From NCBI RefSeq assembly GCF_037076525.1, contig NZ_AP029018.1:1302001-1366000 (forward strand): DNA of 64,000 nt, given 5' to 3'. The translations under genes and the position numbers were made by a program. Below the pieces are notes generated by a model, which searched no databases, had not been told where the DNA came from, and saw only the letters and a program-made list of their open reading frames with translations. How positions within the stretch are numbered: the first letter of the stretch is position 1; each line of letters opens with the position of its first letter. Positions 44,494 to 64,000 of the stretch are shown here, piece after piece. This stretch comes from Selenomonas sp. TAMA-11512 (GTDB lineage: Bacteria > Bacillota > Negativicutes > Selenomonadales > Selenomonadaceae).

Positions 44494-44529
44494 ACTTCCG
44501 ATAAGGATAAATTATCGGAAGTTGTTTTT
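44494..44529 (+). terminator. Terminator after the long U32 gene
   Basis: ACTTCCGATAA (44494-44504) pairs perfectly with TTATCGGAAGT (44512-44522), 7-base loop, followed by TGTTTTTA. Confidence 0.9.
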
Positions 44530-46827: not shown

Positions 46828-47985
46828 TTAATTATCCGCGTACTTTGCGAGGCGCAGCCCGAGGTACGTAAGTGAGACCGTCGCGGCATAGTTCACAGCG
46901 AACGAGAACGGACCGCTGTACGTACCGTGTCCAAAACAGTCACTTTGATGCAACACGCTATTTGCCGCCGCCCACGCGTAATCCGCATATGTCGCGTTAG
47001 CTTCCACAGCATCGGCAGTTACGGGAATAAAGACGTCTGCAAGGTCGTACGCTTCGCCTTTCGCTACGGATACGTCCTTTATCCATCCGGCAGCTACAGT
47101 TACGTCTGTTTGTACGTATGTGCCGTCGCATGCGTTTGAGAATATCTGTGCTTTCCCCTCCGCGTCTGTTTTGAAACCGTCTGTGTGTTCAAATATATTG
47201 CCCCACCACTCGGATAGACCGCGCCACTTCGCGTTGGATGTACCCGTTGCAACTATCGTGTGCTGTGAACCGTTTCCGATCACTTCTTGCATGTCTGTCG
47301 TCGCATATTCTATGAGCATGAGAAGCGAGATTGCCGCTCTCTCGTAGATCGTCTGCAAGTGCCAGCCGCGCTTGTTCGGATCACTGGCATTTGTATTGCG
47401 CGCTGTGCAGCTGTTGATTGCACTTGCCATCCCGCCGACGCTCACCCACGGCGTTTTCCCTGCCGCGCTTCCTGCGACGCCATTATCGTTGTATGCTTCG
47501 TACGCGCCAATATAAAAGCAGCTCTTCTCTTCGCCGTTGCGTATAAACGCCGGATGCACGTGATATCCTTCCCGCGGTTCTTTGCTGATCCAGCGGCACT
47601 TGTTATCATATCTATGGTAAAACTTCGGAATTTTCACCATGGTCTGTCCGTCAAACGTGACTGTCTCTATCGCGTTCCATGGATAGAGGTCGTCGAAATT
47701 CGGGCGCGGAATCATTCTGCCGGCTTTGTTGATGTGCAGCCATATGCCTGACTTCAAGCCCTCTTTCGCGAGCATGACGCCGACGACACCTTCCGCGTCC
47801 TCTTTGAGCTTATTGATGCTCTCATTGAGTGCATTTGTCTGTGCTGTGTTGAGTTCGTCGACTTCAGCCTTCGTGTACGTGTTTTCTGCGTGTACTTCTC
47901 CGAAGTATCCGGCCTTCCATTTCTTTTTCTTTGTTCCGATTGTTCCTTCACCCGTCGCACGCGGCACATAGTTTCTCGTTGCCAT
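46828..47985 (-). CDS. Phage tail fibre tip/receptor-binding protein with lectin-like C-terminus
   Basis: A 385-residue protein. The N-terminus (GEGTIGTKKKKWKAGYFGEVHAENTYTKAEVDELN) is a tail-fibre style repeat followed by a short coiled coil. From about residue 75 the protein has features of a C-type-lectin/formylglycine-enzyme-like fold: KIPKFYHRY, FYIGAYEAYNDNGVAGS, then GRGWHLQTIYERAAISLLMLIEY-like helix and a Trp-rich WRGLSEWWGNIFEHTDGF. It ends LTYLGLRLAKYADN, reminiscent of target proteins of diversity-generating retroelements. No reverse transcriptase gene is in view. It lies between the T7-like fibre base and the lysis genes, so host binding is the likely role. Confidence 0.78.
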   Translation of the reverse strand: MATRNYVPRATGEGTIGTKKKKWKAGYFGEVHAENTYTKAEVDELNTAQTNALNESINKLKEDAEGVVGVMLAKEGLKSGIWLHINKAGRMIPRPNFDDLYPWNAIETVTFDGQTMVKIPKFYHRYDNKCRWISKEPREGYHVHPAFIRNGEEKSCFYIGAYEAYNDNGVAGSAAGKTPWVSVGGMASAINSCTARNTNASDPNKRGWHLQTIYERAAISLLMLIEYATTDMQEVIGNGSQHTIVATGTSNAKWRGLSEWWGNIFEHTDGFKTDAEGKAQIFSNACDGTYVQTDVTVAAGWIKDVSVAKGEAYDLADVFIPVTADAVEANATYADYAWAAANSVLHQSDCFGHGTYSGPFSFAVNYAATVSLTYLGLRLAKYADN

Positions 47986-47996
47986 CGTCTTCCTCC

Positions 47997-48761
47997 TTAT
48001 TCCTTCGGCATGATATCGCCGTTCTCGTCGAGCTCGTAGTTGACATCATAGATCGGCTCTTCAATCGGCATGATGTCGCCGTTTATGTCTACTTCGAAGA
48101 AGTCGATTTTAGCGACGTTAAGCGCATCAGTCACCTTCTTCACGTACTCGATCAGCTTTGTCTCCCCTTCTACCGCATCTCTGAGTGCCTGTGCTGTCGC
48201 AAGAGCTTCCGCCGCTGTATTTGCGGCGCCCTCCACTTTTTCCGACGCGTTCTCCGCTTTCTCTGCTGCGACCATCGCTTTCCCGACTGCCTGCGCTGCA
48301 TCTTCTCGGCTTTCTCTGATGAGGCGTATCATTGTTTCGGGTGATTCGGTGCCGGACTGTATGATCTTTACACATCGAGAGAGCTCCTCTGCATGCTCTT
48401 GCAGTATGAGCATCGATTTGTCTATCATCTGCTCGGCGATTGTTAGCGGATACATCGTCCCTAAATCGTCGTCTTGTGTGAGCGCTGTTCTCCGTACGAG
48501 TGTGATAATCTTTCCTTTCTTTAGTGGCGGAGGTCTGTTTGCGTCTTCTACTTCTTCTCCCGGCGGGTACCATGGATAGAGTACCGCTTTTTGCACATCA
48601 TCGATAAATACATGTGCATCTAACTTTTCTTCTGTCTCCGCCGCTTCGTCGTAGACGAGGCACACAATGTCCTCTTTCTTGATGTACGGAAATGGAATCG
48701 GGAAAACGGTCGTGCTCCCGTCACCATGATATGAGATATGTGGTTTCTGATCTTCTACCAT
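47997..48761 (-). CDS. T7-type tail fibre N-terminal (attachment) protein
   Basis: A 254-residue protein starting MVEDQKPHISYHGDGSTTVFPIPFPYIKKEDIVCLVYD, the pattern of the T7 gp17 N-terminal domain that fixes fibres to the tail. KGKIITLVRRTALTQD and a MYPLTIAEQMIDKSMLILQE segment continue the domain to about residue 130. A long heptad-like coiled coil rich in Ala and Glu (about 140-215) follows. The end contains two NGDIMP repeats. The ATG at 48761 has GAGGAGG upstream. It has no receptor domain, which the next gene supplies. Confidence 0.88.
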   Translation of the reverse strand: MVEDQKPHISYHGDGSTTVFPIPFPYIKKEDIVCLVYDEAAETEEKLDAHVFIDDVQKAVLYPWYPPGEEVEDANRPPPLKKGKIITLVRRTALTQDDDLGTMYPLTIAEQMIDKSMLILQEHAEELSRCVKIIQSGTESPETMIRLIRESREDAAQAVGKAMVAAEKAENASEKVEGAANTAAEALATAQALRDAVEGETKLIEYVKKVTDALNVAKIDFFEVDINGDIMPIEEPIYDVNYELDENGDIMPKE

Positions 48762-48777
48762 GCGTAGCCTCCTCTCT

Positions 48778-48815
48778 ATTAAAGAAAGCCCCGCAGGCAT
48801 TTGCCCGCAGGGCTT
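48778..48815 (-). terminator. Terminator between the giant core gene and the fibre gene
   Basis: On the minus strand AAGCCCTGCGGGCA and TGCCTGCGGGGCTT form a 14-pair stem (two G-T pairs) with a tiny loop, followed by CTTTCTTT. It lies 12 bases past the stop of the giant gene and just upstream of the fibre ribosome site, so fibre and lysis genes must depend on read-through or an unseen promoter. Confidence 0.8.
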
Positions 48816-48826: not shown

Positions 48827-51800
48827 TTATTTTACTTCGGTTTCTTCTTCATATCGTGCCGCCCGTTTTGATTTTTTCTTCTTTTCCTTTTTTGGCTTTT
48901 CCAGAATCTCCCTCTTGACGGGCTTCTTGTCGAAGAATACGCTCCAAAGTATGTTCCACCCTCCTTCGTAGCGGTTTTCCTCGTCGTTCATGTACTGCAT
49001 CGTTCGCGTGATGGAGTCGACGAGTGTCGTCGTTATGCCTGTCCTTGCCGCTGTAAACGTTGCCGCACCGCTCCCCGCTTTTTGCAGAATCTCGCTGTAT
49101 GTGATGGCTTCGTCCGGTTTTTCGTATAGCTTGTCTTCTTCTAACTTCTGCATGTACTCGCGCTTGGCTTTTCCCTTCTTCTTGCGCAAAGTTTCCTGTT
49201 CTTTCTGCTCTTTCAACGCTTTCTTGGCGGCGATTTCGCTGTCTTTTTCGCTCTTCTTTGACAAGAGCAAGATCGCATCCCAAATCTCGCTTCCACCGCG
49301 TGTGACGACGCTTACCGGTGAATAGCTTCTTCCGTACGTCGTTCCGTCGAAGATCTGATTGGCTGCGAGGTTCGTGACGTCACGCAGGATCGGGATGCCG
49401 CCCGACGTGTTTAAGAGCACGTTCTTCGCGTACAGGGTTGAGAAGCGTTCGATTGCGCCTCTTTCCACTTTCTCGTATTTACCCGTTTTCGGATTGAATA
49501 CGCGCTTGTATTTGTCGCGCTCGTCGTCGCCCTCCAGCCCGAGTGCATATTTTAGCCCCATGGTTATAAGTGACGGGATGAGTATGCGGTAGAACACAGA
49601 CCTCGCAAACGGTATCCAGTGTTTCACGTGGGTTGGTTCTCCGGAGAATTTCCCTTTTCGGTATGCCGCGAGCAGCGCATTGAACTGCGTGTTGAAGTAG
49701 CTGTAGAAGATTGTCAGCAGGCGCATCAGTTCGTTCTTGTTGCGCTGAACGGAGCTCTGGTCCATATCTCGGCCGCTTCCGAATACTTCACGCACCGCCC
49801 GATCGGCGCGGAAGACGGCCTTCCCTTCGGCGTCGGACAGGATTTCCTCGTCGGTCCGTATCTTCGCGCTGGCAGCGATGTCAAACTCTCTCTGCGCTTC
49901 CTCAATCTTTTGATCGAGGTCTCTCAACGTACTCTTCGCCTCGTCTTCCATGTCGTTGAGTTCTTTGTCGTTGTGGACGGCAAACGGCGATTCCTGTGCT
50001 CTTCCCTGTGCGATCGGGTCTTCACTCGCTCGGTTCTCTCGGTGGTTTCGTATCGCTCCTAGCTGAAACGTCGCCTCGATTTGCTCTTCTTTGAGCTTAT
50101 CCAGTGCCGCTCTTGTCTCTTCGATACGCTTGACTTTCGCTTCGTTTTCTTTGATTGCTTCCTGCAGGCACAGACCGTAACTGTCCCGGTACACCTGTAC
50201 CCACATGGGCTTTGATACCATGAGATCGGTGAAGATCATCGGGGCATACGCATGAGAGCGTGCCCACTCCAGGGCTTTATAATCTGCAGACAAGGGCTGC
50301 GCTTGTCTTCGGATGTCTCGGTCGATGGCGTCCTGCCGTTCTCGCATAAACACGGATTTTTTTACGAGCCGGTTCGCTTCGCTCCAATTTCCTGTATAGT
50401 ATGTCAGCGCTTCTCCCATTTTCTGTGCGCCGATCTTGTCTATGGCCGGGCCGATATTGCTCGAGTTCTCTATGGCCGGCCACATGCGAAAGCCCATGAT
50501 GGCAAAGGTCGAATTTGCACGCAGTTTACGAAGCGCTGATGTGACAAAGCTCTCCGCTTCGTTGTTTCCCACTTTCACCGCACTCCACACGTCTGTTGCC
50601 CATTCTTTGATGACTTTGTAATGGGCCTCGCCCATTGTGTTTTTCACATGGCTTTCAAAGTCTTTGTTCGCTATGAGGCGGTACACGTCTCGCACGGCGA
50701 TCCGCATCGCGATGTTGTGTGTGATGTCGTTCAGGTGGCTGACGAGCACGTCGAACGAAAGCAATAGCGGTTGGCCGTACACGGCTCCTGCGCGGCTTTT
50801 CTTGTATCCCTGTCTCGTTCCCATAATCATCGCCCCGGAGGCGGATTCTTTTGCTGATGTATTGGCCGCATTTTCCGATGCTTTTTCGCTCTTCTCGATA
50901 TTGTATCGGATCGGGTAGTAGCCGCCTTTCAGCTTCAGCATCTTGCCTGTATCTGCCGCCTGCACATTGAACGGCGATGCCGCGACGGGTTTGAGCTGCG
51001 TTCCGTTGAGTTCCATTTCTGTTTTCTCAATCTCCGGCCAGAAGCTTCCGACGTAATCCCAAACATCTTGGACAAACATCCAGTCGCGTTCTGTCATGTG
51101 CTTAGCAATCTGCTCTTCCAGGAAGGAAATGGAGCGCTTTGACATCTCTTCCGCCCATTCTCTTTTTTTCAGAGCGGCGCCGGAGAACGCCTTTTGAATC
51201 TCTTCTCGGAACGCTGTTTCTTTTTCTTCCGGCACACCAAGACCGCCTGCCAGTCGCTGCCGGTTGCTTTCTGTTCCTAAGTTGAGCGCCATACAGAGCA
51301 GCTCTTCTTTTGACACATTCTCTATGCCGTCCGCCGTCTCGATTGGAATGCTCTTCTTTTCCCATGCCTGTCGCTCTTCGTGACTATATCTTGCGACCAG
51401 TTCTTCCAGCTTCTCGAAGTACGCCTCTTTCAGTTCACCTTCTCTTTCGGCCGCTTTTTCGAATGTGCCGTAGATGTACTTGTGCGCTTTCTCTCCCAGG
51501 AAGCTTAGTATCTGCTCCGGCGTCGTTATGGCGGCCAGCCCTTTTTGGCCGTATCTTGCCGCCGACTCTCCCAGCGGCATCTTTGCGAGATACTCGTTGT
51601 ACCCGAGTCCGCCCACATTGTCACGGATGCGATAATTTTCCGTATGGACATTTCTTGCCAGCCCGGTCTCGTCGTTGATGATCTCATCCACGGCGTCTTC
51701 TTCACCGATGCCATCCCATGTCTTTAGCTGGAACTTTTCGCGTCCGGTCGTGTAGATCTGTGTCATGACGTTCAGGGCGCTTTCGAAATCCAAGACGTTC

Positions 51801-54800
51801 ATGCTCTCGTAGCCGGCGAAGTTTTCTCCTTTGGCTGCGATGTCGCATACTTTTTGATGCATGTCTTCGATCTTGCCGTCGGAGCCGATTTCCACCTTTG
51901 CCGCCTTTTCTTCGAGCAGTTCACGAAGTTCAGGCATGTCTATCGGGTTTCCTTCCTCGTCTTTCGGGAGGTAGGCATCGTTTTTTACGATGCGCAGAAT
52001 GTAGGCGAGGTGCGCGAGCCAGTACCTATCTTCTCTCGGCAGGCGAACGCTCTTTTCATACACCTGATCTTTTGCCTTCTTGAGGTCTTTTTTGACGCGG
52101 TCTCTCATATTCCGTGCTTCTTCGGCATATATTTCCATGTAGAGCTGCTGTTGCTGGAAGAGAACCGCCTTATTCCACTTTTTGGCCTTTATGAATTCCC
52201 TCACTTTGCGGGCATAGTATCTCGCCTTATTCGTATAGGCATAGGAGGCGGTCGCTTCGGCGATCGGCTTTCTCTCTAAATCTGCCCGTACTCTCTTTTT
52301 TAGGTCTCGAATGTTTTCTGTCGCCGACTCTTTGACTTCCTCTTCGTGTATCTTCTCTTCTTTTGCCTTTTGCTTGAATTCATGAAACGCCTTCTTCGCC
52401 TCATCGACGGTCTTTGCGTCTATGATGCCCTGCATTCTTTTATAGTCGTCATCGTTCCAGCGTGCCGCTACGCGCAGTTGTCCAAGCTCTTTCTGCAGGT
52501 TTTTCACTTCTTCACGGTCTTTGTCGACGGTCAGTTCGATGTCTTCCGGCATGGCGTTCAGGCGGTCTTCCACCGCTTTCATGGCGAGTTCTGTCTTTCT
52601 TGTGATTTTGGCTTCCAGCCGCTCTTTTCTTCGCATGGCGACTTTCAGCAGCTCCGTCATGTATGCTCTGTACGTCGGCTCGTTCATTGCCTCCTGTACG
52701 GCTTCGTCGGTGAGCTTTCCGTCAATGAGCTCCGTATCGAGACGTGCGGCGAACTCTGCCATATGCTTTTTCACATTCTCTTCGAAGTCGCCCATTTCGC
52801 GGAGCTCTTTTTGGAATCCCTCTTTGCCGGTTTCGGGATACCAGAATTTAATGACGCTCTCTTTCCCGCTTTCTCGAAGCGCTCTTTCGGCCAAGTAGCA
52901 GGATTCTTGGCCGAGCTCTCGCCGAAATCTTTCTTCTTCTTTATCGAGACGCTTTTTGAATCCGGTCTGCTGCTCCTCTTGAAGGTCTTTCATGACGATC
53001 TTCATTAGGTATTCTTTTGCTTCTTCCTGCGCTTCGTTCCACCATCGCGCATTTGTCTCTTCTTCGGTTTCTGTCAGAAGTTTTTCGCCGCCCGCCTCTT
53101 TGACGTTACTGTAGCGGTCATCAAGCTCCATGTACCTGATCTCTTCCTCTGTCGCCAGCATGCGATCCATGACGCGCCGCACTTCTGGACTTGGACGCAT
53201 GCCTTCTCCGATGAAAGCGCGATAGATGCTTGTCAGGAATGCGCGGAAGCGGCGGAACACCGCTTTCAGTCCCTTTGCCGGCGCTTGGCCGTCATGGAGG
53301 TAGGCTTCGTAGGCGCGGGCAAATCTTTCCTGCCGCCATACAGCTTTCAGGCGATCCGCCTCGTCGAAGTCTTTCGCCTCTTCCGCCGCTTTGATGTTCG
53401 CCTCGTATATGCTGAACTCTCCTTCGAGGTCGGTTCCCTTGTAGAGCTTTGCGTCTCCTTCTTTCCATGTGGCCCATTCGTTGACGGTCTGCAGGTCTTT
53501 CTTTGCCGCTTCGTCGATTTCGGCCAACTCCTCCAGGTCGTAGAGAAATGCATGTCCCATCTCATGGAGGAATGTGGACGCATCTCCGTCTTCGAATACG
53601 GAGATAATTCTTTTGTTGTCTGAGAGTGTCGTAATCGTCCCGCGCGTACCGCCGCCCATTTTCTGATTATACTTTTCGATGATGGAGATGGCCTTATCGT
53701 CAAAGATGACATAGCAGCGTCCATCCTGCCGCCCGTCGTATGTGATGCCCTTGATGCCGACGGAGTTGAGCGCGAGAGATGCAGCTTTGTCCGATTCATA
53801 CGCCCCCGCAAGCGCCTGATAGAAATTGCCTCCCGTTTTGTTTTGCATAGCATATTCGTCGCGGAAATACTGCGTTGCAAAAGCAAGCATCTGTTTCTCC
53901 AATTCCTTGACGCGTGGCTCATACTTTTCACGCAAGAGTGCTGATTCTTTTTTGCCGTGCTCCGGGTTCGCCTTAAAATTCGCAACATTCTCCTCCGAAT
54001 ACCCATGAACAAGCAACGCACCCCTACTGAACCTTCTGCCTTGACTCACGCTGATCGGCGCTGGAATCAACATCTGTAAATGATGCCACTCCTGTCTTAT
54101 CTTTTGATACTCTTTCGACCCATAACCGACGCGATCAAAAAAACGATTTAACTCGCGCATAGACAACGCCCTCAGCGCTTTGCGTAACCCTTGCAAAACC
54201 TTCTTCGGCTGCTCTTTTAAGGTCTTCTGCTCGTCAAGCAGGACATCATCCTCCGGGATTTCGACATGGTACAACCTGCCATGTCCCTTTGTTCCAATTT
54301 TCTCCGGGTCGAACCGTTTCAACAGATTGTAGACACGCTCGTTTGCACGAAGAGATTTTTCTGTATCGTTCATCACATACTGTAACGATTCCAAAAGCTC
54401 TTCGCGGGACAACTCCTCTCCGGCAACTTCTTCTGCCGAGTCAATAAGCCCCATCTTTTTTAGCAGTTCCGGGATTTCCATGTTTGGATTCTGTTCGGCT
54501 AATCGGAGTTCATTTTCATGTCGGTTGCGTTTTTCCCGATCCTCATTGACTCTATTTTCTGTCTCGCTAAGCAATTGCTCGTATATAGATTTTATTCGAG
54601 CTTTATCTCTGAGGTCTCCGAAGTACCCCTTGAGAACTATCTCCCATGCTTCTTGCAGATCCGTCGGCAACTCGTCTACTTTTTTGCCATCATAGACGAG
54701 TTCCGTCTTCTCCAGTTTTTCCCTATACCCCTCTCCTATATTTCTATTCTGTGCGGAGTATAGGCCGTAGCCATGCACTTGTGCACCCTCGCCTGTGCCG

Positions 54801-57800
54801 ATATAGCCGAGGTCAAACTTGTCGAAGTCTGTGGGAGAGCCGACCCATGCGGATTGATAGAGCCCACGATTTTCTCTTTTCAGCTTGCCTAAATCCGTTT
54901 CATCTGGTATACTAAGACCATACAAGGACTGTTTCGTTAGTGGAGCACTATGACTCCCGGCCGTAGCCGTTTTGGCTGCGACCCAGCGATCAGTCCTTTT
55001 TTTATTGATATAGAGCAGATTTTTTTGATTCAGTCGATCAATATACCACTTGTCGTTCGGTTGTCCGGACGTTTTTGCGCGTCCATAGGCACTGGCAATC
55101 TTATTTAATCCTTTGCTTGTATTGAGAAAGAATGGAACCATAACTGTTGCGCCGTTGATTTCCATATCGACAACAACAATTCTCTTTTGCGTGTCCTCGG
55201 TTCCAGTTTTTGTATCGAATACCCGTAAAACAAAAAGAGGGTCGGCTATCTTTTTCGGAAGCTCTAGCAGGTCCTTCCGTGCGAAATGGTGTTTGTCGAC
55301 AAGTTTTTGAAGAATTTTACTGTCAATCGCAACTTCCAAACTGCTGTCTGCTCCAATCAAATCAAAGACGAGAGGACTGCGCATCATAACATTATTATGC
55401 AATGGCAACTTGTCCGCAAAGAAAGCATCCACTTTCTCTTTCCATGCCAGCATATCTTCTTTTAATCGTCGTGCGGCCGATGTCTGATTCAATCCGCCGA
55501 CATCTTTATACTTTTCCTCAAAGTCGAAGCCGTAGCGCTCCATATAGTCGAGCGCCGTATATGGTTTGCCTGTCGCCTTGGCGTAGGCTTTCGCGTATAT
55601 GTCGGCGCGGCGGGCCCAGAGGATTGCGTTTACCTTTGCCGTCTTTGCCGTTTCTTTCCCGTCGATTGTCACGGACTCGAGCATTTTCTTGAGATCGCTG
55701 TATACCTTATAGCCCTCCGGGCTCAAGGATTCGACGAACTGCATTTCCATGCCGCTGATGTTTTTGGCCGTATCTTTGATTTCATCCAATCTCGCCAGGA
55801 CTTCCTGTATTCTTCCGACCTGCTCTTTCTTTCCCTCCATGTACTCCGCATCGTAGGCCTCTGTCCATTTCTTCACCTGCGGTGCATCGCTCTTTCCGGT
55901 CACCATGGCGATGGCTATGGCTTCTAATTCAGCTTTCTTCGGTTTGCGTTTATGTTCTTTATAGAACTCTTTGTACCATTCGCCTGTTTCTTTATCTGCC
56001 TGGAGCGCTTTCAGAGCTGTAGCGATTTCTCGCTGCAGCTCTTTTGTATACTCCTTGTGCATGGTGTTCCACCCAACTGCAGGGTTCAGCGGGTTGATTT
56101 TGATGATGTCCGCCAGGAAGCCTCGGCGAAATTCCTGCGCCGCATCGTTCTCCACTTTCGGATAATGTGTGTCGACAATGGTGCGGATCAGCTTGTCCTG
56201 CTCTTCGACGGCTGTTTTCTGCGCTTCTTCGGCTGTTTCTATCGCGGTCTTTGCATCTCTCCCCAGTCTTGCGAGACTGGTTGCATCCTGTGTGTAGGTG
56301 ACGGATTGCAGGAGCTCGGGGCTGCTTTTTACCTGGGCGAACTGTTCCACGGGGACTGGGATGGTTGCTTTGGATTCAATCGCTGTCTGCAGGTCTTCGC
56401 TGCTCATCCCTGTCGCTTCAGCGACTTTTTGCAGGTCTTCCATGCCTTTCCTGCCTTCGACGGCCATCTCCGTATCGATGTATGCCATCTCGTAGCCTGT
56501 GCCTTCAAGCTGCTTTCGGAGAACTTTTTGCGCGATATCCGGCGCGCTTTTCGACAGTCTTCCATCACTCGCGATCTGCTGCAGCTGTTCGAGCATAGCA
56601 CCGCCCGCAATCGTCTTCTGCACTTCTTGGCCAAGCCTGGTTTCCTCTTTTTGCCGCTTTATCCAGGTGTGCGTTCCTCTTGCTATATCCACGCTTACGC
56701 CTGCGCCGCCGCCGGCCAGCCCAAACACAAGGGAGGACGGCAGCGCTGTCACGGAGCTTTTCACCGCGTCGAACGCAATGTCTCCCAAGGTATGTGTATA
56801 GGTATCGCCGCGGCCGGTTATGGTAAAGAGAAGGTTGTCCACGACGTCGTCGGCCGCGCTCTGTAGCCCTTCTTCCAGCGCTTCCGTTTTGGCCACGGAC
56901 AGGACGTCTTTCCCGCGGCTTTTTGCGAGTGTCAGGATACGTGCTTTTGACGCGATCTCTATTCCGCTGTTGGCGATGGCGTCGGATACGACTTTTTCCG
57001 TAAACGGTGTTGACGCGACACTTCGGCCAAGGACTTTCCCCATGACGGCGAATGTCGGGAAGATTTCAACGCCTGCGTTGACTGCTCCTCCCAGCATGGC
57101 AGCTCCCGCGGCTGCTTTATCCGAATATACGCGGTTGCCTTCCTCATCCTTTCTCTCTATATATTCTGCAAACCGTTCGCCGGCTTCGGGTCGCATCATG
57201 CCTAGAAACGCGCCTGCTTCTCCGCCGTATTTTGCCGCTTTCAGAAGAAGCGCACGGCCTTCGGTCGTCATGAGCATGCGCCCTGCAATGCGCGCAAACA
57301 GGGAGCGCGAGACGCCTTTGCCGAAGCCTCCCACGGCTCCCGCAGTTGCCCCCGGCAGAGCGCCCACGCCGCCCGCCGCCGCCCCTATGCCGCCCGTCAC
57401 GGCTGCCGTAAGCGCGGCGTCGCGCACGCCGTCCATGATCATGTCTTTCATGCCCGGCATGGATTCCCCGGCGCCGGATACGGCATAGGCGATGGGGTTT
57501 TCAAAGAAGGACGGCATGTCTGCTTCTGCGTCTTGGACTTCCGCCTCCAGTGCTTTCGCGCGCTCTTTTTCTTCCTCTGTGGCCTCTCCCCACATGATCT
57601 TGTATCTTATCTTATTGAGCTCTAAGCTTTTCTCACCAATCTCCAGGGACTTTGTGAATGTGTCGATGACGCTTGCCTGCCGGCGCATTTCATCCCGGTT
57701 GTGCAGGATGAGCGCTGCGCCTTCCGTGTCGAGAGATTCCACGGTCTCTTTCAGCCCGGGGTATTTCCCCCACCATGTCTCCGGGTCCATCCCTTCTTGG

Positions 57801-58354
57801 TCGCGCTGCTTTTTAAACTCGTAGAAGCGCAGGGCTTCTTTATATGTGGATGCATCGTACAGGATGGCTTCCGCCGGAATGCCGGTGTACATCGACACGT
57901 CTCTCGCTGTCTTGATCTTCTCTTCGGGTGTGGTGTAGTACTCCATGTAGACGTCGGAGCGGCGGATGCTGTTGGCCGCTTCATAGAACAATCTCTCTGG
58001 ATCGTTTGCATTCGCCTCGACAAATGCGGTTGTTGCCGCCTTTGCCGGGGAGAGGACGAGGCCACCTAGGGCGTGCATTTGGCTTTCATCTGCCTGCGCT
58101 CGCGCCGCTTGCAGTGCGGAAAAATCTCCTGTTCGCTTATACTCCTCCACGGCGTTTTTTATTTCTTCTCTGCGCCTTTGATTGACTTCCTGCAGTGTAT
58201 TCCACGCGTCCCCTACATCGCTTGCAATCGCACTACCGACATCCCACGCACGGTCAAAAAAGGATTTGTTCGCTTCGATCGCCTCCGCTTTTTGCCGTGC
58301 TTCTTCTTCCGCGTTCTCTTCTTCCAATCTCTGCCGCACTACATCCAGATTCAT
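48827..58354 (-). CDS. Giant virion core (ejection) protein with polyvalent enzyme domains
   Basis: A 3,175-residue protein in the position of T7 gp16. It opens with charged helical sequence, then a Gly/Ala-rich hydrophobic stretch (about 311-360). Residues about 985-1125 resemble a PBECR-type (barnase/EndoU/colicin/RelE-like) nuclease of phage proteins (DKHHFARKDLLELPKKIADP, then NKIASAYGRAK and LLYINKKRT). About 1164-1560 resembles the polyvalent-protein ADP-ribosyltransferase (AWVGSPTDFDKFDLGYIGTGEGAQVHGYGLY, GRLYHVEIPEDD, CYVIFDDKA). About 1575-1730 has STFLHEMGHAFL (His1597-His1601), a zincin motif. The rest is long coiled coil. The C-terminal third includes a conserved phage region (about 2840-2960) with a hydrophobic helix near 2918-2938, and a Lys/Glu-rich tail. 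AGGAAGAGAG precedes the ATG. Domain names are motif-based. Confidence 0.85.
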   Translation of the reverse strand: MNLDVVRQRLEEENAEEEARQKAEAIEANKSFFDRAWDVGSAIASDVGDAWNTLQEVNQRRREEIKNAVEEYKRTGDFSALQAARAQADESQMHALGGLVLSPAKAATTAFVEANANDPERLFYEAANSIRRSDVYMEYYTTPEEKIKTARDVSMYTGIPAEAILYDASTYKEALRFYEFKKQRDQEGMDPETWWGKYPGLKETVESLDTEGAALILHNRDEMRRQASVIDTFTKSLEIGEKSLELNKIRYKIMWGEATEEEKERAKALEAEVQDAEADMPSFFENPIAYAVSGAGESMPGMKDMIMDGVRDAALTAAVTGGIGAAAGGVGALPGATAGAVGGFGKGVSRSLFARIAGRMLMTTEGRALLLKAAKYGGEAGAFLGMMRPEAGERFAEYIERKDEEGNRVYSDKAAAGAAMLGGAVNAGVEIFPTFAVMGKVLGRSVASTPFTEKVVSDAIANSGIEIASKARILTLAKSRGKDVLSVAKTEALEEGLQSAADDVVDNLLFTITGRGDTYTHTLGDIAFDAVKSSVTALPSSLVFGLAGGGAGVSVDIARGTHTWIKRQKEETRLGQEVQKTIAGGAMLEQLQQIASDGRLSKSAPDIAQKVLRKQLEGTGYEMAYIDTEMAVEGRKGMEDLQKVAEATGMSSEDLQTAIESKATIPVPVEQFAQVKSSPELLQSVTYTQDATSLARLGRDAKTAIETAEEAQKTAVEEQDKLIRTIVDTHYPKVENDAAQEFRRGFLADIIKINPLNPAVGWNTMHKEYTKELQREIATALKALQADKETGEWYKEFYKEHKRKPKKAELEAIAIAMVTGKSDAPQVKKWTEAYDAEYMEGKKEQVGRIQEVLARLDEIKDTAKNISGMEMQFVESLSPEGYKVYSDLKKMLESVTIDGKETAKTAKVNAILWARRADIYAKAYAKATGKPYTALDYMERYGFDFEEKYKDVGGLNQTSAARRLKEDMLAWKEKVDAFFADKLPLHNNVMMRSPLVFDLIGADSSLEVAIDSKILQKLVDKHHFARKDLLELPKKIADPLFVLRVFDTKTGTEDTQKRIVVVDMEINGATVMVPFFLNTSKGLNKIASAYGRAKTSGQPNDKWYIDRLNQKNLLYINKKRTDRWVAAKTATAGSHSAPLTKQSLYGLSIPDETDLGKLKRENRGLYQSAWVGSPTDFDKFDLGYIGTGEGAQVHGYGLYSAQNRNIGEGYREKLEKTELVYDGKKVDELPTDLQEAWEIVLKGYFGDLRDKARIKSIYEQLLSETENRVNEDREKRNRHENELRLAEQNPNMEIPELLKKMGLIDSAEEVAGEELSREELLESLQYVMNDTEKSLRANERVYNLLKRFDPEKIGTKGHGRLYHVEIPEDDVLLDEQKTLKEQPKKVLQGLRKALRALSMRELNRFFDRVGYGSKEYQKIRQEWHHLQMLIPAPISVSQGRRFSRGALLVHGYSEENVANFKANPEHGKKESALLREKYEPRVKELEKQMLAFATQYFRDEYAMQNKTGGNFYQALAGAYESDKAASLALNSVGIKGITYDGRQDGRCYVIFDDKAISIIEKYNQKMGGGTRGTITTLSDNKRIISVFEDGDASTFLHEMGHAFLYDLEELAEIDEAAKKDLQTVNEWATWKEGDAKLYKGTDLEGEFSIYEANIKAAEEAKDFDEADRLKAVWRQERFARAYEAYLHDGQAPAKGLKAVFRRFRAFLTSIYRAFIGEGMRPSPEVRRVMDRMLATEEEIRYMELDDRYSNVKEAGGEKLLTETEEETNARWWNEAQEEAKEYLMKIVMKDLQEEQQTGFKKRLDKEEERFRRELGQESCYLAERALRESGKESVIKFWYPETGKEGFQKELREMGDFEENVKKHMAEFAARLDTELIDGKLTDEAVQEAMNEPTYRAYMTELLKVAMRRKERLEAKITRKTELAMKAVEDRLNAMPEDIELTVDKDREEVKNLQKELGQLRVAARWNDDDYKRMQGIIDAKTVDEAKKAFHEFKQKAKEEKIHEEEVKESATENIRDLKKRVRADLERKPIAEATASYAYTNKARYYARKVREFIKAKKWNKAVLFQQQQLYMEIYAEEARNMRDRVKKDLKKAKDQVYEKSVRLPREDRYWLAHLAYILRIVKNDAYLPKDEEGNPIDMPELRELLEEKAAKVEIGSDGKIEDMHQKVCDIAAKGENFAGYESMNVLDFESALNVMTQIYTTGREKFQLKTWDGIGEEDAVDEIINDETGLARNVHTENYRIRDNVGGLGYNEYLAKMPLGESAARYGQKGLAAITTPEQILSFLGEKAHKYIYGTFEKAAEREGELKEAYFEKLEELVARYSHEERQAWEKKSIPIETADGIENVSKEELLCMALNLGTESNRQRLAGGLGVPEEKETAFREEIQKAFSGAALKKREWAEEMSKRSISFLEEQIAKHMTERDWMFVQDVWDYVGSFWPEIEKTEMELNGTQLKPVAASPFNVQAADTGKMLKLKGGYYPIRYNIEKSEKASENAANTSAKESASGAMIMGTRQGYKKSRAGAVYGQPLLLSFDVLVSHLNDITHNIAMRIAVRDVYRLIANKDFESHVKNTMGEAHYKVIKEWATDVWSAVKVGNNEAESFVTSALRKLRANSTFAIMGFRMWPAIENSSNIGPAIDKIGAQKMGEALTYYTGNWSEANRLVKKSVFMRERQDAIDRDIRRQAQPLSADYKALEWARSHAYAPMIFTDLMVSKPMWVQVYRDSYGLCLQEAIKENEAKVKRIEETRAALDKLKEEQIEATFQLGAIRNHRENRASEDPIAQGRAQESPFAVHNDKELNDMEDEAKSTLRDLDQKIEEAQREFDIAASAKIRTDEEILSDAEGKAVFRADRAVREVFGSGRDMDQSSVQRNKNELMRLLTIFYSYFNTQFNALLAAYRKGKFSGEPTHVKHWIPFARSVFYRILIPSLITMGLKYALGLEGDDERDKYKRVFNPKTGKYEKVERGAIERFSTLYAKNVLLNTSGGIPILRDVTNLAANQIFDGTTYGRSYSPVSVVTRGGSEIWDAILLLSKKSEKDSEIAAKKALKEQKEQETLRKKKGKAKREYMQKLEEDKLYEKPDEAITYSEILQKAGSGAATFTAARTGITTTLVDSITRTMQYMNDEENRYEGGWNILWSVFFDKKPVKREILEKPKKEKKKKSKRAARYEEETEVK

Positions 58355-58389
58355 ATCTCTCTTCCTTTCGCTTCATCTCTAAGCTTTCG

Positions 58390-60711
58390 TTACCGTTTCA
58401 TTTCCGCCTTTGCCTGCTCGACGTAGTATCTGGCCTCCGATGGCGAGAAGCCTCCGTTTTCCTCCTGCTGCAGGTACCATTCCGCCTCTTCGTCGTTGGA
58501 TGTTCTGCGCACAGCCAATATCGCCATCTTGAGCGATTCGCCGCTCGCGGTATTGTCTCCGCTGCCGGCCAGCCCGACGTCCTGCAGAATCCTCGCCGCC
58601 TTGTTGTACTTTGTCTGATCTTTGGGTGAAATCGTGTCGTCCGAATCGTCACGTCGAACCTGATACTCGTTGAAGCGATCCTGCGCATCCTCGATATCGT
58701 CGCGCGTGTACTCTTTGCCGCTCGCTCCTTGTATGTGCTCTTTATGTTTGCCCGGGAGCGGGTATACTTCGTTTATGTATTTCATCGCCGCCCGCTGTGC
58801 GTCTCTTTCCAGTCCGCCGATTCCGGAGATTGCGATCATCGCTTCTGCTCGACCTCCCGCCTCGTCGACGACATCTTTGACATGTTCCAAGAGCGCGTGC
58901 TGCTGCTTTTTCCAGACGGTTGTTTGATCTGATGCCTGTGCCCTTACGGCGGCGATGAATGCCGCTTTCTTATTTTCGTCAACGTATGTGTACCCGGATG
59001 TTCCTGCGTTCCCCGTAAATGTTCCTTTATATCCGCCCAGATGCAGATGATCTCCGGAGCCGGCATCGTGAAAGAGAACCTCTTCGAATGCCCCGGTACT
59101 CTTGAAGTATTTGACGATCGCGGATTTATCCACGCCGTCCGGCAGGACGATATCCACTGCGTCTCCACCGTTTCCGTCGTCGATGTGATGGGAATGCTCT
59201 GCTCCGCCCACCTCTCGGTTGTGCTCTCTCGTTCTTCCTGTGGAAGAAATGACGCCTGTCAGTCCGAAATTGTCTTTCAGTGCGCCGCCGATGATGCCGA
59301 GTATGCCGTCTTTCCACTTGGGCTGCAGGCGATCTGCGGATATACCGTCTTGCGTTCCCATGTAATACGGTGTAATTCCGAGCACGTTGCCTCCGCCTGC
59401 GTTGCCTTTTTCTTTGTTCTCTTGATAGGCTTTTTGCACTTTTTCGACGTACGCCTTTGTTTCCGCGTAGTTTGGCACGCCGCCCGCGTCCTTTACAGCC
59501 TGTGGTCCCGCATTGTAGGCGGCTGCTGTAAGTCTTATATCGCCGCCAAACTCTTCGAGCAGTCCTTTCAGATACTTCGCGCCTCCACGGATGTTATCCC
59601 GTCGGTCATCCGGGTTGACGCCCAGTCCTGCCGCTGTCCCAGGCATGAGCTGCATGATTCCTCTCGCGCCTGCCGATGATACGGCGTTTTGGTCGAATCC
59701 CGCGGTCTCGACGTTCGCGATAGCGGCGACAAGCGCTGGATCGACACCAAATTCTTGCGCGGCATCGTTGATTTCTCCGTCAATTCCCGCATCTCCGCTC
59801 CACCCGACACTGCCCTCTGCGCCTTGGACTCTGACTTGGGCATATTGTGTCGCCGCTTTTTCCAGTGCGTCTTCGTCAAAGAGGCCTGTCTTTACATTGT
59901 AGAGCATCGGCAGGATGCTTTTTGCGGCCATCTGCACTTCTCTTTCTGTTCTCTGTTTTGTCAGCGGTTGGATGAGCTGGCTGTGTCGTTCCGGATCCAT
60001 ATCGCTTTGGTGCTTTTCCAAAAGTTCATAGGCTCCGTCTGTATTTCCAGCGGCAATCATAGCGCCGGCGCGCTCTGCAACAAGCTTTGTCGTGAAGTCT
60101 GTTTCCATCGCGCGCACCTGTGCTCCGCTCCATCCAAGCTTTTGTGCACGCTCACCGATGAGGTTTCGTCCTTCTTGCAGCAGGCTGTCTTCCGCTCCGG
60201 ATACCATCCATGTCTTGCCGGCCGTGTTCGACAACCCATCGAGGTTCGCACTGTATTCCGCTGTGGCCGCATTTTCGAGTTCATTCCTCTCCTGCGTCCC
60301 GGCCGAGCGCATATAGTTGAGCATGTTGTCGCTGATGCCTGCGGCGATGCGTCTTTGTACTCTCCCGTTATACTGCTGGCCAATCTCTTTGGCTGTATCC
60401 CGGATGGTGCTTTCTGTATCCTGCATGAGGCCTTTTGCGTGTTTTCCCACGCGGGTCGCAAAGAGGCCTTCTTCGCCATACAATTTTTCGGTGACGGCTG
60501 TCCGAATGGCATTCATGCCTTCCTGCACGGCGATATCGTCTTCTTCATCCTGTCTCTTTTGTAGGATGTCGATGACTTTTCCGATTGCGCCGGCGACGGC
60601 CGCTTCTTGCTGTCCGCCCGCTTCAAATCGCAGATGGGCAACAGGCGCCTGTACAGCAGGTGTTCTCATGATACCTACAGGGACCGATGTATCGTATGTT
60701 GTGAACTTCAT
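58390..60711 (-). CDS. Virion core protein with lytic transglycosylase and M15-like peptidase domains
   Basis: A 773-residue protein in the gp15/gp16 region of a T7-like virion module. A helical N-terminal third (about 40-290) is followed by an SLT domain (about 308-425): AAIANVETAGFDQNAVSSAGARGIMQLMP with catalytic Glu335, then AAAYNAGPQAV. A second enzyme domain (about 480-560) looks like an M15/LAS peptidase: HSHHIDDGNGGDAVDI (His508/509, Asp520) and GDHLHLGG (His555, His557). Transglycosylase plus peptidase would cut both glycan and peptide bonds of the wall during DNA ejection. The C-terminal 200 residues are helical and acidic. The stop lies 35 bases before the giant gene. Confidence 0.88.
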   Translation of the reverse strand: MKFTTYDTSVPVGIMRTPAVQAPVAHLRFEAGGQQEAAVAGAIGKVIDILQKRQDEEDDIAVQEGMNAIRTAVTEKLYGEEGLFATRVGKHAKGLMQDTESTIRDTAKEIGQQYNGRVQRRIAAGISDNMLNYMRSAGTQERNELENAATAEYSANLDGLSNTAGKTWMVSGAEDSLLQEGRNLIGERAQKLGWSGAQVRAMETDFTTKLVAERAGAMIAAGNTDGAYELLEKHQSDMDPERHSQLIQPLTKQRTEREVQMAAKSILPMLYNVKTGLFDEDALEKAATQYAQVRVQGAEGSVGWSGDAGIDGEINDAAQEFGVDPALVAAIANVETAGFDQNAVSSAGARGIMQLMPGTAAGLGVNPDDRRDNIRGGAKYLKGLLEEFGGDIRLTAAAYNAGPQAVKDAGGVPNYAETKAYVEKVQKAYQENKEKGNAGGGNVLGITPYYMGTQDGISADRLQPKWKDGILGIIGGALKDNFGLTGVISSTGRTREHNREVGGAEHSHHIDDGNGGDAVDIVLPDGVDKSAIVKYFKSTGAFEEVLFHDAGSGDHLHLGGYKGTFTGNAGTSGYTYVDENKKAAFIAAVRAQASDQTTVWKKQQHALLEHVKDVVDEAGGRAEAMIAISGIGGLERDAQRAAMKYINEVYPLPGKHKEHIQGASGKEYTRDDIEDAQDRFNEYQVRRDDSDDTISPKDQTKYNKAARILQDVGLAGSGDNTASGESLKMAILAVRRTSNDEEAEWYLQQEENGGFSPSEARYYVEQAKAEMKR

Positions 60712-60724: not shown

Positions 60725-61441
60725 TCATCTCCAGCGGAATTCTTTCTTGACGCCCAGGCTTCTTATGCCTTCGTTGTTGCTTCGCCAATCGAAGCCTTTA
60801 TTGCCGAGGTAGTCCATTTTGCCGGGGCCCATCGGCTGTGTGTCGAAGAAGTCAAAGGGCGAGATTGTATCTTTCTTTGCCGATACTGTTCCGTACGGCG
60901 ACTGCCCGCCTCCGGACATGCCAACAATCGATGCCGCTGTGCCGATGAGTGTCCCGATGCCCTGCCACTTTGCCGCTTTTCTCACGGTTCTTGCGTTGCC
61001 GTGGGCATTCGCCTCGGAAAGATGCGCCTGATCTGCCTGGTTGATATAGTTGCTCTCCGCTATACGGGAGGCGTAGTTATCGTATCGCTGGTTTGTCAGC
61101 AGGTTGATCTGATCTTCTTTGTATGCCTCGTTCGATGCGCTCAGCAGGTCCATGGAGCTTCCCGCAAAGGAAAGCCCTGCCGCACCTGTCTGCGCTCTTT
61201 GCTCGCCTTCCGCCAGGCGTCGGCGTCTTCTAAGTTCGGTTGCTTCCTGCGCATATTTGTCCGCGATGCTCTCTTGTTTTTTGTTCTCGATGCGGGCATT
61301 CTGCTCTGCCGCGTCCGCTTGGTATCTGTACGCGTTTGCCTGCGCTTCGTACATCTTCGCCTGTGCTTCGCCCTGTTCTCTTTGCTGTCTGTATTGTAGC
61401 AACCCTCCGATTGCGGTGAGTCCCGCCATTACACTGCACAT
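60725..61441 (-). CDS. T7 gp14-like internal virion core protein
   Basis: A 238-residue protein starting MCSVMAGLTAIGGLLQYRQQ, followed by a long Ala/Gln/Arg-rich helix (about 20-85: AQAKMYEAQANAYRYQADAAEQ), a TGAAGLSFAGSSMDLL segment and a glycine-rich region (about 170-190) with a weak hydrophobic helix. This layout is that of T7 gp14 relatives, which enter the outer membrane during ejection. The ATG at 61441 has GAGGAGG upstream; the longer open frame overlaps the gp13-like gene and is rejected. Confidence 0.85.
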   Translation of the reverse strand: MCSVMAGLTAIGGLLQYRQQREQGEAQAKMYEAQANAYRYQADAAEQNARIENKKQESIADKYAQEATELRRRRRLAEGEQRAQTGAAGLSFAGSSMDLLSASNEAYKEDQINLLTNQRYDNYASRIAESNYINQADQAHLSEANAHGNARTVRKAAKWQGIGTLIGTAASIVGMSGGGQSPYGTVSAKKDTISPFDFFDTQPMGPGKMDYLGNKGFDWRSNNEGIRSLGVKKEFRWR

Positions 61442-61461
61442 GCCGCTGCCTCCTCTTTTGC

Positions 61462-62004
61462 CTATCGTTTCTTCTCCGTGCTGTACATAGTTTCTTCTGT
61501 GATATAGAATGGTCGGAACGCCATATCTCCTCGCGGGAACGGCTCTGTATATCCCGTGCCGATAAAGTTTAGCCATTTTACTGCGTCTGTATTTTCCTCT
61601 GATACTGCGTTGTAGAGCAGGCCGTATTCTTTGACCCATCCGCGCAGTATCTCTTTTGACTCTCTCGCAAAGGACGCGAACATGGTCTTTATAGCATCTG
61701 TTCCCAGGCACCATATAAGGCACCCATCAAATCCTTCAAGTTTTCTCCTGCCCCACAGGACGAGCAGTTCACCGTCTTTTTTACGTGCTTCCCATACTTC
61801 ATCGCTCAGGCTTATGCTGCTTTTGACTTCGTTTTTAACCGCCAAGAAGGATCGGATGCGATACTCCTGTGTATCCCTTTTCAGTCCTTCCATGGCGGCG
61901 ATTTCCGCATAGTCTGCGTCCCGCAGATTCTTTAGCAGTTCTTTTCCTGCTTCTCTTTTGTCGCTTTCTTCAACCAGCTGTCTTATCTCGTAGCGCTTTT
62001 CCAT
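61462..62004 (-). CDS. T7 gp13-like protein (GNAT-fold, DUF2833)
   Basis: A 180-residue protein. An N-terminal LRDADYAEIAAMEG segment, a middle LVLWGRRKLEGFDGCLIWCLGTDAIK and a C-terminal AVKWLNFIGTGYTEPFPRGDMAFRPFYI match the phage Gp13/DUF2833 pattern, which has a degraded acetyltransferase fold. In T7, gp13 is needed for incorporation of the core but is not itself a main core protein. Position between the nozzle and gp14-like genes supports the call. Start ATG at 62004. Confidence 0.85.
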   Translation of the reverse strand: MEKRYEIRQLVEESDKREAGKELLKNLRDADYAEIAAMEGLKRDTQEYRIRSFLAVKNEVKSSISLSDEVWEARKKDGELLVLWGRRKLEGFDGCLIWCLGTDAIKTMFASFARESKEILRGWVKEYGLLYNAVSEENTDAVKWLNFIGTGYTEPFPRGDMAFRPFYITEETMYSTEKKR

Positions 62005-62015: not shown

Positions 62016-64000
62016 CTATCCCAAGAATGTCACAGCGCGTATCAGCGCGGACATATCGAACGGATGCGGCGTATCGTGCTCGATATAGACGCGGCCTTCG
62101 GTGTTCACACCTTTTTCGTGCATCGTCGTCTTGACCTCTCCCGTGACGAGAGATCCTGGCGCTGTCTCTTCGGTGCCGTAGAGTATGCGCTGCAGATGCT
62201 TTTGATCGGCGCCGATTTTCCCTCCATAGCTGTTCTTTACGCGAAGTATCGCTTCGGTGACGGTCTTTTTTCTGCCCTGCACGGTGCCGGATTCCGTGTT
62301 CCCCGCGTCCCAGTTGGGCGTTTCCAGGATCATCTTGTACGGCAGTCCGAAGGTGACTTTCTGCGCGCTCGTCGGAAGCTCCGCTTGTCCTTTTCGTACG
62401 ACGTACATTCCTATGTATTTTCCGTCTGCAACAATCTGCACGGTCTTGCCTTCAAGTCTTTCAAGTCCGGTGACGGTATGAGACGGCGTATCTCGCTCAA
62501 CGATGCCTGCCGCATCCATCATGCAATAGTCTTCCAGTTGGCTCTTTTTCCCCTCGTCGGCCAGCCGTTCTATGTATACGCGTTTTTCTCCGCCCGCTTC
62601 ACGCTCGACGGCGATATATACTTCATCTCTGTCTTTTCCGTTGATGGATGCGATGGAGAGAATCTTTCCGTCGGTCACGATGTGGGACCATCCGTATACC
62701 TGCTGTTCCATGACGTAGGTCAGGCACAGGAGTATGCCGTCGTCTCGCACAAAGTACATGATGCTGTCGGGTTCTTGCGCAAAGTCCGCGTCTTCAATCT
62801 TGTGTCCTTTGACGAGGTGTTTTGCAAGAAGCGTCAGATCCATGCCGTGGTAGCTGTCCGAGTTGTAATCATAGCCGATGTCTCTGGCGACCGCTCCTCG
62901 ATTTTGCACGTAGACAACACGGCTTCCCACACGGATCGGGGTGATGTTTCCCGTTCCGTAGCTGTCCTGCCGCCTGGGCGTAATGGAGGACGGCGTAACT
63001 GTGTCGTTGCCGGAAATCGTCCACGAGTTTCCTTCGGTGAAGACGATAAGGTCTGTTCCCGCATCCATGTGCGCGACGGATACGTATTTCTGGGAGAGCA
63101 TGTCTGCCGATATCGCACTGTCGTCGGTGACGCTCCCTCCTTCTTTCAGGATGTCGAAGTTTTCGTAGTCGCCGCTCTTGCTCATCCATATGCGCGTCGG
63201 ATGTCGTTTCCCGCCGCCCAGGCATAAGCGATCCTGAAAGAAGGTGGCTGCCACCGGATATCCGTATCGGTCGCTCCACGCACCGAAATACCAGTCCGGC
63301 GTGCTTTTCGTGCTGCCAAAGTCTTTCTCAGTTTCTACAATGACTTTTCGCGCATTCACATACTTGACGATGCGCCCCCACCCTGTATGCGTATACGGCA
63401 GTGACGAAAGGCTTTGCTGTATGCTTCCGGATACGCCCTCATTTCGTATGCGCATCAGGCATTCTTCTTCCACGGTTCCTGTTTCCTGTGGGTTGTAGTC
63501 GTTGCTCGATGTGTATGTGCGCATCTTTGTCCAGGTCTTTCCGTTGTTGATGGAGTATTCCAAGTGCACGGTCCCCGCCCATGTGCCGTGGCTGATGTAT
63601 TTCCACGATCCGCCCACGCTGATAGAGTTTGCCTCCGCTTTTATCTCTTTGACGGTTATGGTGTCACTGCCGCCCTGTATCTGTGCTCTTACTGTCGTTG
63701 TGCCGCGAAGCGCTGTCACTTTCAGATACAGGCGGCTATATGTTTCTTGCACCTGTCCTTGTGCGTTGTTTCCTTCGTATGTCTCCGGGCTCTGCCAATC
63801 GATCTTGTGCTTTTCCGCATCGAACACTTCATAAAAGGACCCATCGACGCGCCTGTAGAAGATGGTCTCCCATCGGCTCACTGCTTCCGCGTACGTATAT
63901 GATGTGCTTCCATCTTCGTTTATGTGTTTATCTATGACGTGTTTCGGGAAGTCGTACTTCACCAGAAGTTCAATAATGACATTGCCGCCTTCGCTTGCCA
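62016..64000 (-). CDS. Tail nozzle/tail tubular protein B-like (gp12-like), 5' end outside window
   Basis: The frame is open to the right edge, so the N-terminus is missing; the GTG at 63962 is internal. At least 660 residues are visible. Beta-rich sequence includes WYFGAWSDRYGYPVAATFFQDRLCLGG and IWMSKSGDYENFDI, a signature of podovirus tail nozzle (stabilisation) proteins, then repeated beta-propeller-like strands (VVYVQNRGAVARDIGYDY, YGWSHIVTDGKILSIAS). It would close the portal channel and carry the fibres. It directly precedes the gp13-like gene by 11 bases. Confidence 0.83.
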   Translation of the reverse strand, partial: ASEGGNVIIELLVKYDFPKHVIDKHINEDGSTSYTYAEAVSRWETIFYRRVDGSFYEVFDAEKHKIDWQSPETYEGNNAQGQVQETYSRLYLKVTALRGTTTVRAQIQGGSDTITVKEIKAEANSISVGGSWKYISHGTWAGTVHLEYSINNGKTWTKMRTYTSSNDYNPQETGTVEEECLMRIRNEGVSGSIQQSLSSLPYTHTGWGRIVKYVNARKVIVETEKDFGSTKSTPDWYFGAWSDRYGYPVAATFFQDRLCLGGGKRHPTRIWMSKSGDYENFDILKEGGSVTDDSAISADMLSQKYVSVAHMDAGTDLIVFTEGNSWTISGNDTVTPSSITPRRQDSYGTGNITPIRVGSRVVYVQNRGAVARDIGYDYNSDSYHGMDLTLLAKHLVKGHKIEDADFAQEPDSIMYFVRDDGILLCLTYVMEQQVYGWSHIVTDGKILSIASINGKDRDEVYIAVEREAGGEKRVYIERLADEGKKSQLEDYCMMDAAGIVERDTPSHTVTGLERLEGKTVQIVADGKYIGMYVVRKGQAELPTSAQKVTFGLPYKMILETPNWDAGNTESGTVQGRKKTVTEAILRVKNSYGGKIGADQKHLQRILYGTEETAPGSLVTGEVKTTMHEKGVNTEGRVYIEHDTPHPFDMSALIRAVTFLG

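Follow-up and report, generated by a model that had tools for sequence, protein, structure and literature searches.

A putative giant polyvalent ejection protein encoded by a short-tailed prophage of Selenomonas

The giant gene and the prophage that carries it

A prophage of Selenomonas sp. TAMA-11512 encodes, at the place where phage T7 encodes the ejection protein gp16, a protein of 3,175 residues, which raises the question of whether so long a chain would form an unusually long ejection channel or would rather carry cargo into the infected cell. The window analysed here is a stretch of 64,000 nucleotides (contig NZ_AP029018.1, positions 1,302,001 to 1,366,000) belonging to a 2.59-Mb genome in a single contig, and both alternatives had been proposed for it in an earlier sequence-only reading. 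That reading described an intact 9.5-kb open frame with a proper ribosome-binding site, which the present analysis reproduces, adding the minus strand, which had not been given. The frame of 3,175 codons starts with the ATG at 58354-58352, and the sequence AAGGAAG lies ahead of it at a spacing of 6 nt. Because intact homologues of about 2.0-3.8 thousand residues are present in many phages and prophages, a chance frame is of no concern, and the giant gene is a real, intact frame. Two more homologues, of 3,190 and 2,236 aa, are encoded in the same genome, each in a separate prophage. The features of the gene and its surroundings, in window coordinates, are as follows.

44505-44626, no strand: left attachment repeat, 122 bp; right copy outside the window, just after the integrase
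47997-48800, minus strand: tail fibre, T7-type N-terminal domain (PF03906 below cut-off, 20.3 versus 25.2 bits; PHROG tail-fibre families)
48827-58354, minus strand: giant protein gene, 3,175 aa (PHROG 9880, E 1.9e-125)
58361-58367, minus strand: ribosome-binding site AAGGAAG, 6 nt before the ATG (from the sequence)
58390-60711, minus strand: structural lysozyme, 773 aa, SLT transglycosylase and Peptidase_M15_3 domains (SLT PF01464 E 8e-26; Peptidase_M15_3 E 1.7e-10)
60725-61723, minus strand: T7 gp14-family internal virion protein (PF24072 E 1.3e-14, above cut-off)
61462-62004, minus strand: internal virion protein, gp13-like, weak (PHROG 308 E 7e-20; T7 Gp13 PF11090 below cut-off)
62016-64000, minus strand: gp12-like tail protein, 888 aa in all, running past the window (PHROG 376)

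The prophage is 40.7 kb long and is flanked by the 122-bp direct repeat. Its genes gave PHROG matches to a large terminase, a head-tail connector, a major head protein, tail proteins and an integrase, while a holin and an amidase were matched by Pfam as genes separate from the giant. The order in the window is gp12-like protein, internal virion protein, gp14-family protein, SLT lysozyme, giant and fibre. The PHROG and Pfam matches agree with the earlier assignment of gp12-, gp13-, gp14- and transglycosylase-like genes before the giant and of a T7-type fibre after it, although the gp13 match is weak and the fibre domain scores below its cut-off. Comparison with the T7 order, which is gp13, gp14, gp15, gp16 and gp17, with an endolysin domain within gp16, likewise places the giant in a gp16-like position of a T7-like tail and ejection module. 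With its called GTG start, the gp14-family gene (60725-61723) shares 262 bases with the gene before it, and the PF24072 match begins at residue 95, so that the true start is probably later, inside the called frame.

All three prophages of the genome share a tail protein, of 385 aa in the window (46828-47985) and with homologues in sister prophages B (L008) and C (L009), at about 91% DNA identity, while the giants of these prophages are 24-37% identical over long matches, and hence the fibre end seems to have been exchanged among them. A diversity-generating retroelement was considered for the fibre and rejected, as the sites at which the three similar fibre genes differ show no clustering at the 3′ end; no reverse transcriptase was found in the window's genome. 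A 476-aa frame whose first 30 residues are identical at both sites adjoins prophages B and C (973498-974928 and 2239770-2241200) and is perhaps an insertion-sequence gene.

Relatives and the layout of the chain

The giant matches PHROG 9880, a group of BPP-1 Bbp10-like giants of unknown function, over four stretches. A tblastn search with its last 976 residues returned 40 phage records, all below 60% identity and none covering more than 80% of the query, which included BPP-1 Bbp10, Pseudomonas AF, Caulobacter BL94, Xanthomonas CP2, Cobetia Carin1 and Vibrio phages. Scans using the single window protein alone found no relative. Within the bacterial family, homologues are present in 11 of 189 genomes, the window's genome counted. 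Judged by these matches, the giant belongs to a widespread, known but uncharacterised protein family. With a core alignment, 98 distinct complete relatives were gathered from viral contigs (the best 80 of 328) and genome contigs (64); their median length is 2,226 residues (range 1,172-3,846), and 12 of the 98 have at least 3,000.

Seven phage records were opened, and in all six for which the upstream side was obtained the giant is preceded by a lysozyme-type gene. The call rests on PHROG in Carin1 and BPP-1, on annotation in AF, and on a profile built from five others in BL94 (E 1.7e-75), CP2 (E 1.6e-27) and Vibrio 1.185.O (E 3.6e-26). A depolymerase or tail gene directly follows the giant in Carin1 and BL94; in the other opened records further genes intervene downstream, or the product is unnamed. 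Enough upstream DNA was available for 88 of the 98 relatives, and an upstream frame was in place in 76 of these, matching the lysozyme profile in 48 (five-seed profile) or 63 cases (iterated profile). With the iterated profile no lysozyme-profile gene was detected upstream in 25 of the 88.

The records of relatives name the protein hypothetical, coil-containing, crystallin beta/gamma motif, lysin or lysis protein, and the last three of these names, together with a passage on OANV1 gp16 in the available text of PMC9239159, could suggest that the giant is itself a lysin. This we consider extremely unlikely, as no peptidoglycan-hydrolase domain was found in the giant; the SLT and M15 domains belong to the preceding gene, and the amidase and the holin are separate genes.

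To describe the layout of the chain, 18 giants were aligned and the 98 relatives were then measured, 97 of which match a profile of the zincin-like domain. One relative, whose gene contains a stretch reading N, is absent from alignment A1, contributes a zincin row to A2 and was kept among the 18 giants. The parts of the window's protein are listed below.

56555-58354, minus strand: N-terminal region, residues 1-600, with Gly/Ala-rich hydrophobic stretches (profile in 58 of 148 distinct complete ORFs)
57275-57424, minus strand: Gly/Ala-rich hydrophobic stretch, residues 311-360 (peak 313-333, KD 1.45)
53675-56554, minus strand: variable slot, putatively for cargo, residues 601-1560 (length comparison; Pfam content of 61 slots)
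54992-55312, minus strand: MuF_C domain, residues 1015-1121 (PF18819 E 6.1e-11, 42.8 bits versus cut-off 27.6)
53675-54862, minus strand: ADP-ribosyltransferase (ART)-like domain, residues 1165-1560 (BLAST homology to ART domains of relatives)
53120-53674, minus strand: zincin-like metallopeptidase domain, residues 1561-1745 (alignment of 17 homologues; family profile)
53552-53566, minus strand: HEMGH active-site motif, residues 1597-1601 (HExxH conservation)
51647-53119, minus strand: region between zincin and core, residues 1746-2236, of near-constant length (SD 56)
50129-51646, minus strand: conserved core, residues 2237-2742, with a GGYYP motif (alignment; model of 2237-2955)
49490-49837, minus strand: conserved C-terminal helical part, residues 2840-2955, with a hydrophobic helix at about 2914-2938 (profile, model, hydrophobicity)

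The data showed that the relatives vary in length mostly before the zincin. Among the 97, the start of this domain ranges from residue 1 to residue 2,574 (SD 511), while the distance from zincin to core has an SD of 56 residues and that from core to end an SD of 49. Total length correlates with the pre-zincin stretch at 0.98, which is partly expected, as this stretch is the largest, and the SDs measure the variation better. The window's giant exceeds BPP-1 Bbp10 (2,052 aa) by 1,123 residues, of which about 800 also lie before the zincin and about 320 after its start. These length differences speak against the unusually long ejection channel of the sequence-only reading.

The hydrophobic stretches placed near residues 311-360 and 2918-2938 in that reading were recovered as peaks at 313-333 and 2920-2938 (KD 1.31 for the second). 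The window's giant has five peaks of KD at least 1.2, compared with a mean of 4.3 in 200 shuffles of the same protein, which is about chance; the stretches are credible not because of their number but because they recur at the same aligned place among the 18 giants. An aligned peak near 2923 is present in 17 of the 18, the remaining one being unreadable there, and peaks near 315-337 and near 529-549, the latter absent from the earlier reading, are each present in 14. The highest peak of all (1059-1077) falls within MuF_C.

The variable slot and the zincin-like domain

The slots of 61 members, the window's included, were scanned with Pfam at E<=0.01; 25 of 29 families are listed, and rows near E 0.01 were not relied on. 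The slots contain ART-PolyVal (17 members), PBECR5 (11), MuF_C (5), LPD3 (5), LPD23 (4), DUF7178 (3) and PBECR1 (3), and the single cases include a C5 DNA methylase, RadC and RelA_SpoT. Thus, the slot domains are of enzyme families and differ from relative to relative. In the window's giant, residues 620-960 of the slot form a block that is common to close relatives and matches no assigned domain. MuF_C is the sole Pfam match above cut-off in the whole chain; in the available text of Iyer et al. (2017; PMC5512222) MuF-C is counted as a PBECR, i.e., RNase-fold, domain. A segment like residues 960-1140, which include MuF_C, is located at residue 1410 in one relative (L219) and at residue 3072 in another (L183), and this displacement may be read, from the alignments, as a sign of domain shuffling.

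The ART-like domain of the window matched no Pfam model, while PF18760 (ART-PolyVal) was matched at E<=0.01 by 20 of 24 aligned members. The ART alignment comprised 29 rows, two of which were left out for length. A histidine in strand 1, which the accessible part of Iyer et al. (PMC5512222) describes as characteristic of the ART class, is present in 25 of the 27 remaining rows; it is replaced by Val1171 in the window's copy and also by valine in L086. Tyr1199 in strand 2 and Asp1552/1553 in strand 5 are kept in the window's domain, and the ART copy of sister prophage B retains the strand-1 histidine. Because of the replacement by Val1171, the window's ART-like domain may be inactive or altered, and part of the cargo of this giant may be dead.

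The length of the giant varies mostly before the zincin, in slots whose enzyme-family domains rotate among relatives, and for this reason the unusual length is read as cargo. Hence, the cargo alternative that the earlier reading had also offered is favoured over a long channel. We consider it probable that a BPP-1-type short-tailed prophage here encodes a giant polyvalent ejection protein, with cargo rather than channel making up most of its extra length, and we infer its packaging, ejection and cleavage. In the literature searched, with subscription papers mostly outside reach, no virion proteome of a family member was found. According to this explanation, the giant would be made late along with the virion genes, and the chain would be packed in the head with the gp13- and gp14-like proteins and the structural lysozyme. 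It would be ejected late, like the virion RNA polymerase (vRNAP) of phage N4, once the lysozyme has opened the cell wall, while hydrophobic parts of the chain would interact with the envelope. Cleavage by the zincin, either inside the head or following entry, would free slot domains that might act on host RNA, proteins or defences, and the C-terminal chassis would serve packaging and delivery. The layout of these giants can now be read as a carrier that stays constant and a cargo slot that varies, with a peptidase dividing them; this makes possible direct tests of slot release, of its site and of action on defences, and points to a natural way for short-tailed phages to deliver enzymes at entry.

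The slot domains of relatives, PBECR and ART, are of the conflict-system type, and the available text of Iyer et al. (PMC5512222) allows roles against rival elements. These points could also fit a non-virion protein acting in the lysogen or in early infection, for example in superinfection defence. However, the giant gene belongs to the late tail and ejection block, and a lysozyme-type gene precedes it in phages of distant hosts as well, which makes a non-virion role very unlikely.

No other enzyme-type domain seen here is kept as widely as the zincin, which is located at the boundary between slot and chassis in the 18 aligned giants. HExxH is present in 18 of 18 giants and in 87 of the 98 complete relatives, and in 17 aligned zincin sequences the H, E and H as well as two downstream glutamates are invariant. 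Two relatives (L122 and L081) have HExxxH in place of HExxH (HEFAGH and HEFTGH), a variant described in the accessible part of Iyer et al. (PMC5512222). The other relatives lacking HExxH are seven of Rhizobiales, L117, which has no zincin match, and L071, which has a partial one. A model of residues 1140-1760, which covers the ART-like domain and the zincin (621 residues), was only fair (pLDDT 79.9, pTM 0.51), with pLDDT block means over HExxH of 77 and 90. It gave no PDB matches at E<=0.001, and the best Z of 8.1 in a VIA second look reflected helical hairpins at the chance level for helical models.

In the seven Rhizobiales loci (L265, L267, L268, L270, L271, L272 and L275) the family protein is split in two genes, located at about 2.7-11.7 kb of each locus and adjacent in six, while they are 2.8 kb apart in L270. 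The stretches examined around the seven pairs contain no lysozyme-profile gene. By eye the neighbours look chromosomal, and one of them, common to L265, L267 and L270, was judged in the same way to be an aldo/keto reductase. LPD22 is present in the upstream gene of all seven loci, and this gene also shows N-terminal family similarity (7/7; filters off, E 8.5e-13 to 3.9e-5). The downstream gene encodes the core and a zincin from which HExxH has been lost, with a dN/dS of 0.25-0.38 in all 21 pairs. Diversity is much higher in the upstream gene (22-80% identity), whose dN/dS is 0.30-0.54 where computable, synonymous sites being near saturation in many pairs. A domesticated system is possible for this two-gene locus; the seven loci are related, and one event may account for all of them.

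These loci bear on the role of the zincin. The loss of HExxH fits a self-processing role, because a divided chain needs no cutting. The available text of Iyer et al. (PMC5512222) lists a host-targeting effector as an option for such zincins, which here would be a variant of the preferred explanation, overlapping with it in probability. We regard it as unlikely, though with an appreciable chance, given the wide conservation of the domain at the boundary in the 18 giants, and given that HExxH was lost in the seven split loci while the downstream gene has a dN/dS of 0.25-0.38, which is what a chain-cutting role would predict; the relatedness of the loci applies to this argument too.

The constant C-terminal half, comprising the zincin, the next region, the core and the hydrophobic helix, could be a general protein-delivery chassis of short-tailed phages, on which a slot domain would be packed, ejected and cut loose. 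This would make it a podovirus counterpart of a secreted-toxin carrier, with a core fold that has no significant PDB match, which Rhizobiales chromosomes would have taken over as a split, peptidase-dead two-gene locus. We propose this wider view tentatively, at somewhat less than an even chance.

The core model and comparison with known proteins

The sequence-only reading had proposed structure prediction in segments and Pfam and profile searches. In the present analysis residues 2237-2955 were modelled confidently and MuF_C was found, but the core obtained neither a significant PDB match nor a Pfam name. The model, made with 58 sequences, has a pLDDT of 87.5 and a pTM of 0.85 and is almost wholly helical, with no PDB matches at E<=0.001. 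A second look with VIA gave a best Z of 9.5, rejected as long-helix hairpins at the chance level for helical models, and weak rows of alpha-pore-forming toxins in the PDB comparison were not counted as evidence. Against a viral model library the core had 59 matches at E<=0.001; the 50 that are listed are entries of 861-1,495 residues, several of them named PolyVal, ART-PolyVal, MuF or nuclease. The zincin of the window, like the core, has no Pfam assignment. Across the core and C-terminal part of 58 members, two Pfam families were matched at E<=0.01, weakly and in one member each, and no LPD model was matched.

The giant shares with T7 gp16 its place in the operon, but it is 2.4 times longer, shows no significant sequence similarity to it, and lacks an SLT domain, which is located in the preceding gene. 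Orthology with gp16 was examined by hhalign and is not used as evidence: the core against 46 gp16 sequences gave probabilities of 1.6-2.9% (P 0.015-0.031) with one short motif, and the N-terminal profile gave 0.7-3.7%. The motif aligns GGYYPIRYN of the core (near residue 240 of the 719-residue model) with GTYVPHVYD of T7 gp16 (from residue 662) and is not significant by profile comparison. The ejection proteins of N4 and P22 had no significant match to four family profiles. Among the matches listed, the lowest whole-sequence E values were 0.046 (P22 gp7, N-terminal profile) and, both with the core profile, 0.049 (T7 gp15) and 0.067 (T7 gp16); the lowest E for shuffled sequences was 0.14, and a single N4 gp51 segment reached 0.019 (N-terminal profile).

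The gp16 position, the hydrophobic stretches at conserved places, the long helices of the core model and the weak motif shared with T7 gp16, whose hhalign score against the core profile is 31 compared with 16-20 for three shuffled proteins, could be explained if the whole chain were an extended gp16-like channel, with the extra residues lengthening a trans-envelope tube. We give this only a small chance of being correct, since the extra length lies mostly in a slot whose enzyme-family domains vary among relatives, since relatives of about 2,050 aa manage without it in the same gene place, and since the profile-profile probability with gp16 is so low.

A polyvalent ejection protein with cargo remains the preferred reading, and it has an analogue in coliphage N4. 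The vRNAP of N4 (gp50), an ejected protein of 3,500 residues, is called analogous to gp16 in the available text of PMC12633501, where it is also proposed to leave the head last, as beads on a string, via a tube of smaller ejection proteins. The two giants are similar by analogy in being encoded in an ejection-gene block. On the other hand, the window's giant has no RNA polymerase Pfam match at E<=1, and N4 gp50 had no significant hmmsearch match to the four family profiles. Features of gp50 itself, according to the accessible parts of the respective papers, are a peptidase domain (Iyer et al., PMC5512222) and a lipid-binding N-terminal domain (PMC12633501).

Polyvalent proteins are proposed, in the available text of Iyer et al. 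(2017; PMC5512222), to be injected, with processing by the zincin, and the processing of P1 DdrB is cited there. The core and C-terminal part of the window's giant differ from them in matching no LPD model, and its ART copy lacks the strand-1 histidine. The giant is like them in combining zincin-, ART-PolyVal- and MuF_C/PBECR-type domains in one chain and in being encoded among late virion genes. The likeness to BPP-1 Bbp10 is one of homology, detected by BLAST for the zincin, core and C-terminal part and by alignment for the N-terminus, and the gene of Bbp10 also follows a lysozyme-type gene. The difference is in length, to which, besides the residues before the zincin, smaller additions contribute, including about 96 residues at 2745-2840 that are present in 5 of the 18 giants compared.
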